Part shown: piece by piece, positions 3,745 to 7,881 of the stretch
Layout of the letters: the number at the start of each line of letters is the position of its first letter
Numbering within the stretch: position 1 is the stretch's first letter
DNA from: Candidatus Methanoperedens sp.
GTDB taxonomy: Archaea > Halobacteriota > Methanosarcinia > Methanosarcinales > Methanoperedenaceae
DNA: 8,155 bases
Direction of reading: 5' to 3'
NCBI GenBank assembly: GCA_026552835.1
Contig: JAPMTY010000068.1
Location: 1 to 8,155, forward strand
Translations under genes and position numbers: made by a program
The notes under the pieces: generated by a model
Database searches by the model: none
Seen by the model: only the letters and a program-made list of their open reading frames with translations
What the model was told of the DNA's origin: nothing

Positions 3745-6700
3745 ATGCAAACACAAAAGCAATTTATTATAATTTTATTTTTGTTTTTAGTAATAGTAGA
3801 GGCTTCCACACCTGTCAATGATGTTGCAAATAATACACTCACAGCAACTTCTTTTTCACCATTTAATGTTTCAGCAACAGGTGGCAACCAGACCATAAGG
3901 GTTGCGACCAGCAGATATTCGGTTTTCAATCCTTGGCTGATCAGTGCAAATTACAGTTTTAAACTTAGTGGAAATTTCACCGTTTTTGCTTTGCTATTAA
4001 ATAATGGATTGCCAGCTCCGGGAAAAAACATTACTTTTAATATATCTGCAAACGGGACACTTAAATCCACTCAATATAACCTGACCCGGGAGAACGGTTT
4101 AGCAAGTGTTTCGTATAATACACTCGGTATATTTACTAATAGAAATGATACCCAATACGGCAATTGGACGATTACTGCCTCCCTGACTAACAATACAGCC
4201 GTCACGGATAGCACTAATATGAGCCTTGAGGGTTGGGCAAACACTAATACGACAACGTGTGGAACTCAAAATATTTATTGTCATCGGCTGAATATTATTA
4301 CTCCCACCGATTCCAATAATATTAGCGGTGGTAATTATCCTCATTCCCCCTTCACAGGCGGTTATGGCAATGATACTACTTTTATGGAAGCGGCACACCA
4401 AAGGTCAAGCCATTCCAGTAATAATTACAGGGGATGTTATATTTGCCACCCGGGATATTCAATAAATAAGACAGGGTTGTATGGTTCTACAAATGACGTA
4501 CACAAGAACAGAACATGTGATTACTGCCATGGTAACTGGACTTACATAAGGACTAATTTAACACTTGGCGGTGGAGCAGGTGTTCCAAAAATACCAAGCT
4601 GCTATGATTGCCATCCTATCTACAATAACAACCTCACAAATATAAGCACGCTTGCTGATCTGATACCAGGACCAGCCGCTAATGTCACGGGAAAGAATAT
4701 CTCAGTTTATTCTTATAATTTTGATAACGGAACCCCACTTACGGCACACAACGGTACGGAGTCCAGTTTAATAGCCTCTGTTCCATGCGTCGTATGTCAT
4801 GGCCCCGCGCACAATATAAGCAAACCAGACCCCATACCTGCGAATACGAATAACTTTACCGAATACACCCAGTGCACTGCCTGCCATAATGCATACAAGC
4901 GCCACAACGACAGCGTGAGCTGCACTGTATGCCACAGCCAGGATGCCCATGCCATAAAAGTGTTTTCCCAGAGCGCCTCGTATATATCCCTGAATAGAAC
5001 TAATCCAAATCCGGCAAGAGGCAACTGTACGAACTGCCACCAGAATTCTACATTTTTGAAAATTTTGCTGCAACAAAACCTTTCGGGCGCGTACTCCGGA
5101 AGTGACCCCCCTCAGATTCCGGAACCCGTGAACCACAGCAACGATATAAACGCTGGCATAAAATGGAATCAAACTCCGGGTTACTGGAATAATAGCCAGC
5201 AGCTTACCTGGTGCCTCTACTGCCACGGCATAACCCTGCATAATTCCACTGCTTTAGGCAGACCTTCGCTGTCAAAAGGAAACAACGCTGTCAACTCTAC
5301 AATCTCTGCAAACACTTCCTGGTGCGCTCTATGCCACTGGCAGGGGTATTCAAACGGAACCAATACCTATAACGATACAGTCGGTACCTTTAACTTTCCA
5401 GGTGAACCGTTATTAGTCCCGCCTGAAATTACTGGAAATGCCACCTTTGGGGCAAACCAGAGTAATCCTTCATATTTTAACCACAGCAGTATAAACAAAG
5501 ATGATTCATCCTGTAAGAACTGTCATGGGAGCCTGACCTCAAGTGTGAATATAACCGGATTCATGCACAATGTGGTTGCAGGCGGCGGAGCCAACTGTAT
5601 CAATTGCCACGATATAAACGGAAGCGGCGCGCCGCAGGACAAGAGAATAACGGCGTCTTCTATGAAACAAGGGGTACATGCAAACTTAAACAGCAATGCC
5701 ACCAACTCCACATCTCTGGACCCGCTAAACAAAGCCTGCTGGGCGTGTCACGGAAATGGTTCTGAACCTGCAGGACATCCCCTGACATACAAAACACCGA
5801 AGAACTGTAATAACAATGACTGCCACTCGATTTCACAGTCACAATACAACGAGACAATGATTTATTCGCATTTCCAGAACGCAAGCCTGAATAGTAATCC
5901 GAATAATGTTACAAATTACAATATAACAACAACAGAGCAATGCCAGAACTGCCATATAAACAGCTTAATAACAACAGATAACAATTCAAATCTTGCTCTA
6001 GCATCGCATTACGGGTCAAAAGATAACTTAGTGGATTCTTTCAATTGCATTTATTGCCATCTCGATAAGGATAACAGTGAGGACTGGGGAAATGCCACCC
6101 TGATTAATAAGGACAGGACAGGTACTATCGAGGTGAATAAGGAAAAGAACAATCTTACCGTGTTTGAAGGGCAGACTGTCTATCTTGGCGAGGGGTACTC
6201 CTTAAAATTAATACAAATATCAACTTTGAGAGGAGATGCCCTTATCCAGATTATGAATAAAGACATTATCGTGGACCAGGCTATGGTTGGCCGGGATAAC
6301 CCATATACTTACGAGAGAGAGGTCACAATCGATAATGCAACCTTCAAGACACCTGCAGTTACGGTGCGCATAAACTCCATCTTTACCGGCGCTAAAGAAA
6401 GTTTTATCACATTAGAGGCATTCAGGCCAAGAAAGACACATACAGAAAAGGAAAGCAATAACAGTGACTGCTTTGCCTGTCACTTGTACAGGTATTCTAA
6501 TGAAAAAGAACGGTATAAGGTTATAGACAGGGAAGCAAAGGATAACGGGCGGGATATAATCTATTATACCGGAGTGTTACTTGATCATAAATTAGAAAAT
6601 ATGAGTAAAATTTACTCAAACGATGAAGATTATGTCTTTGGCCAGCTCGGCAAAATGGGAAAGTTTATTTCAGTTCCCCACTTCCAGAAATATCTGGAAG

Positions 6701-7881
6701 ACGGGCAGATATGGCAGATAGCTGACAATTACTCTTTGAAGTTCAGGGCATCCAGTACGGACAGGCAGGCATGGCTGGAATTTAAGATAAATAATGAAAC
6801 TGTCGAGGAAGATGTGGTCAGCGCAGGCTCAGTGTTCACCTACGTGCCTGGCGTCAGGTACAAGGGGTATGCTGATACCAATATGACCATCCTCACTGCA
6901 AATGTTTCAAACGTTTTCCTGGGGCAGAAAGATTTTATCGTACTTCAGGATTCGCAACTCCTGTCAACACAGGTATTGAAGACTACTGCTAACACCACTC
7001 AATTCGGGTATAATAGCAGCTGGCTTCATCCGGGCGACAGGTTCACACTTGGAAAAATCCCTGAAAGCCTGCATACTCCAAACCTGTTTTTTGATACCAG
7101 GGACTGGGCTGATTGTGTGGGATGTCATGATTCCTCAAAGAACCTTAGAATTCCAGAGGTCAATGCTATTTCATCACGGCTTGGAAAACATTCAACACTG
7201 AATGCAGAAGCACCAGATAATCCATCCATGTCAGATAGCATTGATAAGGCATGCCTGGCGTGCCATACAGATGGAACCGAACCAAATACCCATTCACCAA
7301 CATACGTTACGCCAAGGAACTGCACATCATGTCATACATACCAGGATAAACCGACGTATGGAGCAGTAAATCTCAGCGACGAAGCTCATGGATACTTTTC
7401 TGCCTGCGAATTATGTCACATGCCAAGGTCCCATGAGATTATCAGGCCCCAGATACTGCCTTCAATAAGTGAGGCTAATTTATCCCGGAGTGTTATCAAT
7501 AGCGGAGAATCGGTGAAATTGACCGCAACAGCCGAAGGCGGTATTGGGATGAAAATAAGATCTGCTGAATACTTCATAGATATAACCGGCAGCCCGGGGC
7601 ATGGAATACCTCTTAAACCCATTGACGGGATTTTTGACTCACAGGTTGAACGGTTAGTTACAGAAATCAATACAAGCGGTATTTCAACCGGGACGCATAC
7701 AATTTATATCCATTCAATGGAGAGAGATAACAGGTGGGGTGAATTTTATCCGGTAAACTTTACCATAGTTTCTGATCCACCGGTCGTCGGCCAGGACAGG
7801 AAGAATGTCGCATCTCTGGATTTTGGTTCTATAATAATCTCTTTAATGATTGTTTATCTCATTATTTCAAAGCGAAGGTAA
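3745..7881 (+). CDS. Giant S-layer-associated multihaem c-type cytochrome, membrane anchored
   Basis: The 1378-residue protein has a signal peptide (residues 1 to about 21). An Ig-like domain of the invasin/Big-1 type follows at about 50-165. Canonical CXXCH haem sites begin at residues 231, 258, 286, 348, 377, 393, 428, 490, 527, 590, 618, 665, 733, 768, 909, 1124, 1170, 1193 and 1221 (19 in all). There is also a CX4CH at 688-694 and a CX6CH at 172-180. Residues about 793-894 and 933-1080 resemble the Methanosarcinales S-layer domain (PF07752 type), with GEGYSLKL and SIFTGAKESFITLEAF in the first and SNVFLGQKDFIVLQD in the second. A second Ig-like domain spans about 1236-1343, followed by a membrane helix (about 1360-1375) ending in KRR. 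The protein should sit outside the cytoplasmic membrane with its haems in or across the S-layer, carrying electrons outward. ANME-2 S-layer cytochromes are the known parallel; the exact partners are unknown. It has its own promoter region. Confidence 0.93.
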   Translation: MQTQKQFIIILFLFLVIVEASTPVNDVANNTLTATSFSPFNVSATGGNQTIRVATSRYSVFNPWLISANYSFKLSGNFTVFALLLNNGLPAPGKNITFNISANGTLKSTQYNLTRENGLASVSYNTLGIFTNRNDTQYGNWTITASLTNNTAVTDSTNMSLEGWANTNTTTCGTQNIYCHRLNIITPTDSNNISGGNYPHSPFTGGYGNDTTFMEAAHQRSSHSSNNYRGCYICHPGYSINKTGLYGSTNDVHKNRTCDYCHGNWTYIRTNLTLGGGAGVPKIPSCYDCHPIYNNNLTNISTLADLIPGPAANVTGKNISVYSYNFDNGTPLTAHNGTESSLIASVPCVVCHGPAHNISKPDPIPANTNNFTEYTQCTACHNAYKRHNDSVSCTVCHSQDAHAIKVFSQSASYISLNRTNPNPARGNCTNCHQNSTFLKILLQQNLSGAYSGSDPPQIPEPVNHSNDINAGIKWNQTPGYWNNSQQLTWCLYCHGITLHNSTALGRPSLSKGNNAVNSTISANTSWCALCHWQGYSNGTNTYNDTVGTFNFPGEPLLVPPEITGNATFGANQSNPSYFNHSSINKDDSSCKNCHGSLTSSVNITGFMHNVVAGGGANCINCHDINGSGAPQDKRITASSMKQGVHANLNSNATNSTSLDPLNKACWACHGNGSEPAGHPLTYKTPKNCNNNDCHSISQSQYNETMIYSHFQNASLNSNPNNVTNYNITTTEQCQNCHINSLITTDNNSNLALASHYGSKDNLVDSFNCIYCHLDKDNSEDWGNATLINKDRTGTIEVNKEKNNLTVFEGQTVYLGEGYSLKLIQISTLRGDALIQIMNKDIIVDQAMVGRDNPYTYEREVTIDNATFKTPAVTVRINSIFTGAKESFITLEAFRPRKTHTEKESNNSDCFACHLYRYSNEKERYKVIDREAKDNGRDIIYYTGVLLDHKLENMSKIYSNDEDYVFGQLGKMGKFISVPHFQKYLEDGQIWQIADNYSLKFRASSTDRQAWLEFKINNETVEEDVVSAGSVFTYVPGVRYKGYADTNMTILTANVSNVFLGQKDFIVLQDSQLLSTQVLKTTANTTQFGYNSSWLHPGDRFTLGKIPESLHTPNLFFDTRDWADCVGCHDSSKNLRIPEVNAISSRLGKHSTLNAEAPDNPSMSDSIDKACLACHTDGTEPNTHSPTYVTPRNCTSCHTYQDKPTYGAVNLSDEAHGYFSACELCHMPRSHEIIRPQILPSISEANLSRSVINSGESVKLTATAEGGIGMKIRSAEYFIDITGSPGHGIPLKPIDGIFDSQVERLVTEINTSGISTGTHTIYIHSMERDNRWGEFYPVNFTIVSDPPVVGQDRKNVASLDFGSIIISLMIVYLIISKRR
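5677..5826 (+). repeat. Internal haem-pair repeat, copy A (contains the CX4CH site)
   Basis: Residues 645-694 contain an upstream His, then KACWACH at 663-669, a GSEP-H-TY-TP linker, and NCNNNDCH at 687-694. This matches residues 1149-1197 of the same protein (copy B). Between the first Cys of the first site and the first Cys of the second, both copies have 24 positions, of which 14 are identical. The second haem site here carries two extra residues compared with copy B. Confidence 0.8.
6121..6426 (+). other. S-layer-like half-domain 1 within the cytochrome
   Basis: Residues about 793-894 follow the pattern of the Methanosarcinales S-layer domain: FEGQTVYLGEGYSLKL, then alternating strands with KDIIVDQAMV, and a closing RINSIFTGAKESFITLEAF. 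The segment is rich in charged residues and has no haem motif, in contrast to the Asn-rich haem region before it. The assignment rests on recalled family patterns, not on a search. Confidence 0.7.
6541..6984 (+). other. S-layer-like half-domain 2 within the cytochrome
   Basis: Residues about 933-1080 repeat the S-layer strand pattern: WQIADNYSLKF, then AWLEFKINNETVEEDVVSAG, then ANVSNVFLGQKDFIVLQD. The segment DGQIWQIADNYSLKF aligns with FEGQTVYLGEGYSLKL of the first half-domain, and SNVFLGQKDFIVL aligns with NSIFTGAKESFITL. The isolated haem site CFACH (909-913) lies between the two halves. Confidence 0.68.
7189..7335 (+). repeat. Internal haem-pair repeat, copy B (both sites CXXCH)
   Basis: Residues 1149-1197 repeat the module of residues 645-694: an upstream His, KACLACH at 1168-1174, a GTEP-H-TY-TP linker, then NCTSCH at 1192-1197. 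Both haem sites are canonical in this copy, so it serves as the reference for the expanded site in copy A. The copies lie on opposite sides of the S-layer-like region. Confidence 0.8.
7816..7869 (+). other. C-terminal membrane anchor of the cytochrome
   Basis: Residues about 1358-1375 form a hydrophobic stretch (FGSIIISLMIVYLIIS) followed by the basic tail KRR and the stop. This is a typical archaeal C-terminal anchor that leaves the protein outside and only a short basic tail in the cytoplasm. Together with the N-terminal signal peptide it makes this a type I membrane protein. Confidence 0.8.

Follow-up and report, generated by a model that had tools for sequence, protein, structure and literature searches.

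Introduction

In Gram-negative bacteria, MtrCAB is a porin–cytochrome complex through a lipid membrane, and its proteins differ from the cytochrome described here. An analogous role, i.e. a haem path across the outermost layer of the cell, has been proposed for S-layer cytochromes of ANME archaea by Chadwick et al. 2022 (PMC9012536, available passages). According to the same passages, all ANME S-layer cytochromes carry a single haem motif in a linker, with the haem in the plane of the S-layer. The proteins of their type A (MHC-A) are large multihaem cytochromes with this single motif between S-layer segments, with a C-terminal transmembrane helix and with 20–80 haem motifs; a peptidase M6-like N-terminal domain marks type B. 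The second point of reference is the Methanosarcina S-layer protein MA0829 (PDB 3u2g/3u2h), which is reported to have two DUF1608 domains in the passages of PMC3361143 available to us.

The lone linker haem in S-layer cytochromes is already known for the whole protein group. An earlier note on the DNA analysed here had singled out a haem between two S-layer-like half-domains as the point worth checking; both the linker haem and its position in the S-layer plane had been published, at least as far as the available text of PMC9012536 goes. As regards how methane-oxidising archaea move electrons across their protein wall, the lone haem placed in the plane of that wall is the step of interest, and we add to it one further residue, H899, together with a revised map of the domains in the wall module. 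Neither H899 nor a doubling of the S-layer subdomain is mentioned in the passages covered of PMC9012536, PMC3361143, PMC5744192, PMC10874420, PMC12175726, PMC12372872, PMC10542353, PMC11208441 and PMC7082337, yet either may have been published before. Our preferred reading, at a probability of roughly two in three, is that of an S-layer-integrated cytochrome of the ANME MHC-A kind, from an archaeon akin to Candidatus Methanoperedens, with two DUF1608 middle pieces in tandem, whose linker haem is bound via C909/C912, ligated by H913 and most likely H899, and acts as a relay in the wall plane.

Results and discussion

Layout of the cytochrome

The window, i.e. the whole 8155-nucleotide stretch of DNA, contains an open reading frame of 1378 residues (3745..7881; this and all features of the protein given below lie on the + strand). 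By its Pfam matches to Cytochrome_C7 and S-layer sequence, it is a multihaem S-layer cytochrome of the type termed MHC-A in ANME, and those close homologs that bear an organism name belong to Candidatus Methanoperedens. The Cytochrome_C7 match reaches 69.8 bits against a cut-off of 24.8, and Pfam delineates cytochrome c7 and c3 repeats together with two PF07752 segments. A match to the peptidase M6-like domain was absent from the Pfam results for this protein, which is to be read as absence of a match only. The hydrophobic N-terminus (residues ~1–28, 3745..3828), with a hydropathy peak from residue 3, is probably a signal peptide. As a separate observation, the 1378 residues contain 70 N-X-S/T sequons (3745–7881), and the cytochrome may thus be heavily glycosylated.

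The protein carries 19 CXXCH motifs, 14 before the linker, one within it and four behind it; from composition, 0.05 CXXCH would be expected over its full length, and a chance origin is excluded. The linker motif CFACH (residues 909–913, 6469..6483), placed by the alignment and the genome frames, is the only CXXCH between those starting at residues 768 and 1124. The gaps to these neighbours amount to 141 and 215 residues as compared to 16–68 elsewhere. The motif scan thus reproduced what had been claimed before, namely an isolated CFACH between S-layer segments, neighbours at 768 and 1124, and clusters of 14 and 4; there is also a CX4CH motif (CNNNDCH, residues 688–694, 5806..5826). The two cysteines and the histidine of this motif are kept in 105/105 aligned homologs, in 104 of them with the same spacing. 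Because of this conservation, the cluster before the linker probably comprises 15 haems, located by motif positions at residues 231–772 (4435..6060). The total is therefore 20 haem motifs counting CX4CH and 19 counting CXXCH alone, the former number being at the low end of the 20–80 published for MHC-A. The C-terminal four-haem cluster spans residues 1124–1225 (7114..7419). It is followed by an Ig-like beta-sandwich domain (residues ~1240–1325, 7462..7719) and by a hydrophobic stretch, a predicted transmembrane anchor at residues ~1354–1376 (7804..7872), which was assigned by hydropathy only. A C-terminal transmembrane helix is likewise part of the published type A. An unusual CX6CH-like motif, C172-X6-C179-H180 (4258–4284), precedes the haem cluster and is a candidate haem site or disulfide; a CX6CH within the first 400 residues is found in 12/108 homologs, and the CG-X5-CH form in 11/105.

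Conservation of the linker haem site

Conservation was assessed in two overlapping samples. Of 108 homologous proteins, three (P0106–P0108) were dropped as they have no S-layer region, which leaves 105 including the window protein, and also including P0065 and P0101, which are incomplete over the module. For the genome set, 77 loci were scanned; they were drawn from among the matches listed over 79 genomes, with at most 12 candidates scored per genome, and from places in the two genomes behind the loci used here. Since we chose the genomic places, the resulting counts do not amount to a complete census. Counting one frame per distinct segment 1 sequence, 59 frames have both segments; in 15 of these, segment 1 is identical to that of one of the 108 proteins, hence the overlap. 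The cytochrome frames of L082, L086 and L089 have a partial module and were left out, and a second frame at L092 (839 aa, 16 CXXCH, short segment 2 match) fell under the cut-off. The frame of L089 shows one linker motif by a looser count. L098 gave no match.

C909, C912 and H913 are kept in all 105 homologs, the most distant of which shares 23% identity with the window protein. Over residues 773–1123, no position other than these three and H899 (6439..6441) is invariant throughout the 105. The four are held in 88/88, 48/48, 12/12 and 7/7 representatives after clustering at 90, 70, 50 and 40% identity, respectively, where one further invariant position (G782) appears at 70% and seven appear at 50%. 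E903 is invariant in the 45 homologs that have this position, and H1110, which lies behind segment 2, in all 103 that extend so far. Judged from these alignments, the haem site with the nearby H899 is the best-kept part of the stretch 773–1123. The isolation of the site is conserved as well: in 103/105 homologs the linker haem is the sole haem more than 100 residues from both neighbours, the incomplete P0065 and P0101 having no such haem. Among the matches listed, all 59 two-segment genome frames have exactly one linker CXXCH. The linker haem site is conserved across the S-layer cytochromes examined, in both sets. Frames with fewer than three CXXCH were grouped as haem-free; as only one of five, L034, is two-segmented, they provide a weak control.

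H899 is the candidate second axial ligand. The distance from H899 to C909 covers 8 residues in 61 of the 105 homologs, 10 in 26, 11 in 17 and 9 in one, and among the matches listed a histidine is present at most 11 residues upstream of the linker CXXCH in 59/59 genome frames. In Desulfovibrio cytochrome c3, the distal ligand of haem 1 stands 8 residues before its CXXCH. The haems of the C-terminal cluster of the present protein also have conserved upstream histidines, H1110, H1149 and H1183 (103/105 homologs each) and H1215 (97/105), with an additional histidine, H1230, kept in 99 of 105. Neither of the remaining two histidines in the segment (H948, H979) is conserved among the 105 homologs. 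In the structural model, H899 follows the last strand of segment 1 by two residues and H913 precedes the first strand of segment 2 by nine. On these grounds H899 is likely the second iron ligand, and we infer a bis-His linker haem (H913 and H899) from the spacing, the parallel to cytochrome c3 and the conserved upstream histidines in the C-terminal cluster.

Role of the linker haem

The following arrangement is proposed. The C-terminal helix would anchor the cytochrome in the membrane. The four-haem cluster would occupy the space between this membrane and the wall, and both S-layer copies (see below) would be embedded in the wall itself; the 14 CXXCH and the CX4CH of the N-terminal cluster would be external to it. 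The 24-residue linker would hold a single c-type haem, attached to C909/C912 and ligated axially by H913 and, most likely, by H899. Given a C-terminal anchor, the four-haem cluster would face the membrane, and the cluster of 15 haems the outside; the linker haem, as the single redox centre between the clusters, would then most likely relay electrons in the wall plane. This agrees with the wall-crossing conduit suggested in the earlier note, with the anchor placed by hydropathy. A relay of electrons through the wall appears to be the best reading of the site, with one structural reservation: a whole beta-sandwich would separate the linker haem from each neighbour, and the range of a single hop could be exceeded. 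Published expression of S-layer cytochromes is mixed and counts against the relay. In the available passages of PMC10874420, an S-layer cytochrome with 23 motifs was upregulated on an electrode, and work cited there is summarised as showing no expression of S-layer cytochrome genes, either with iron minerals or in syntrophic growth with sulfate reducers. Five MHC/S-layer kinds were highly expressed with manganese according to the passages covered of PMC7082337, and the 19-haem S-layer cytochrome is not among them.

The invariant ligand set, the short linker close to both sandwiches and the distance in sequence to all other haems would also suit a mainly structural haem, i.e. a covalent bis-His group that staples the two sandwiches and sets their angle with little electron flow. 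Stapling does not require a redox cofactor, and the site has a haem cluster on either side, in a protein that is probably anchored in the membrane; we regard this option as unlikely, albeit one to be taken seriously. S-layers are lattices, and the isolation of the linker haem by one sandwich on each side could likewise mean that electrons leave laterally, towards haems in neighbouring molecules of the lattice or towards small cytochromes in S-layer pores, instead of passing to the protein's own clusters. No evidence was found of cytochromes adjoining each other in the lattice, and such an intermolecular relay is judged improbable.

Two copies of one DUF1608 piece

The earlier note had placed S-layer-like sequence at 6121–6984, which indeed corresponds to residues 793–1080 of the open reading frame, and PF07752 matches are found on both sides of the CFACH motif. 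Over the full sequence, the PF07752 match reaches 54.3 bits (cut-off 30). When the segments were searched alone, segment 1 was recovered at 37.7 bits as had been expected for both, whereas segment 2 remained slightly below the cut-off at 28.4. Segment 1 comprises residues 801–897 (6145..6435; the strands of the model end at 897), and segment 2 residues 922–1084 (6508..6996) with a core at ~980–1078. The linker (residues 898–921, 6436..6507), which joins the final strand of segment 1 to the opening strand of segment 2, is the weak part of the haem-free AlphaFold2 model, with a pLDDT of ~50–60, and the overall pTM of 0.56 leaves the mutual orientation of the two sandwiches unfixed.

The two segments had been described as half-domains; this needs to be revised. 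Both match the same PF07752 profile stretch, ~89–201, the window rows falling at 93–201 (segment 1) and 97–201 (segment 2). Segment profiles were built from 31 sequences each, drawn from roughly half of the 59 frames with the window protein added, and PF07752 was found in 30/31 members for segment 1 and 29/31 for segment 2. Against PDB 3u2g (MA0829), the segment 1 profile aligned to chain residues 94–203 (E 6.6e-12) and the segment 2 profile to residues 101–207 (E 1.9e-12). With hhalign, the two profiles matched each other at 99.3% (99.0% using all homologs). As both segments fall on the same stretch of 3u2g and PF07752, the cytochrome has one piece in duplicate and not two halves, and the linker corresponds to a join between repeats instead of a joint inside one DUF1608 domain. 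The "linker between two subdomains" of the available PMC9012536 text hence maps here as the junction of two copies.

S-layer proteins without haem motifs were compared in the same manner, using 21 pieces from two genomes (17 once overlaps were removed). Their middle piece aligns twice to the cytochrome in hhalign, at 980–1078 (98.7%) and 801–892 (98.6%), and their N-terminal DUF1608 piece gave no alignment to it (0.1%). In L034, an S-layer protein of 886 residues without CXXCH, there is one middle piece in each of two PF07752 domains. The cytochrome thus shares with MA0829 a homologous middle beta-sandwich, matched twice. It differs from the two DUF1608 domains reported for MA0829 (PMC3361143, available passages) in that only the middle piece was detected, twice and haem-linked; the subdomain limits of MA0829 are taken from our alignments and from passages of other papers. 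Full-length DUF1608 (~259 positions) was not recovered from the cytochrome, only profile positions ~89–201, and piecewise alignment of the remainder of DUF1608 gave no clear counterpart. TIGR01567 scored 44.1 bits on the cytochrome, below its cut-off of 121.9.

The available text of PMC9012536 states a different view, in which the segments are two subdomains of a single DUF1608 and the haem motif is inserted in a natural flexible linker. It is in line with a Foldseek alignment of the model to 3u2g over 303 columns (17.3 Å rmsd) and with a faint hhalign likeness between the C-terminal DUF1608 piece and the beginning of segment 1 (14.9%; 6.1% in another run). Chain order would require segment 2 to be the later part, yet the faint hint sits in segment 1, the match of segment 2 to the later part of 3u2g is negligible (i-E 1.1e3), and both segments claim the same stretch of 3u2g and PF07752. 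The single-domain view is disfavoured and retains a small probability. That the linker CXXCH is a haem-free metal or disulfide site is hardly credible: while the passages covered show no haem loading for the present protein, the exact CXXCH with its upstream histidine recurs in 105/105 homologs and, among the matches listed, in 59/59 frames, and the other motifs of the protein are cytochrome c motifs.

Returning to the doubled middle piece, a more far-reaching proposal is that the ANME wall module is purpose-built, as opposed to an S-layer domain taken over as such: a DUF1608 subdomain would have been doubled, its partner lost, and the junction turned into an obligate bis-His mono-haem gate for crossing the wall (H899, C909, C912, H913), selected more tightly than any residue of the S-layer copies. 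We put this forward tentatively, at somewhat less than even odds.

Gene surroundings and a larger relative

Upstream of the cytochrome, the window holds the end of a SAM hydrolase-like gene, QueA, Tgt and methanogenesis marker 2. By NCBIfam equivalogs, queA and tgt (500–2626) are queuosine genes of bacterial type, and they adjoin methanogenesis marker 2 in a window that looks archaeal; at locus L001, tgt and marker 2 are likewise upstream of the cytochrome. A much larger frame of 3461 aa was encountered at L030:1-16000, in the genome of L002; it has two S-layer segments and one linker haem, and the part fetched, 2811 aa, contains 52 CXXCH motifs.
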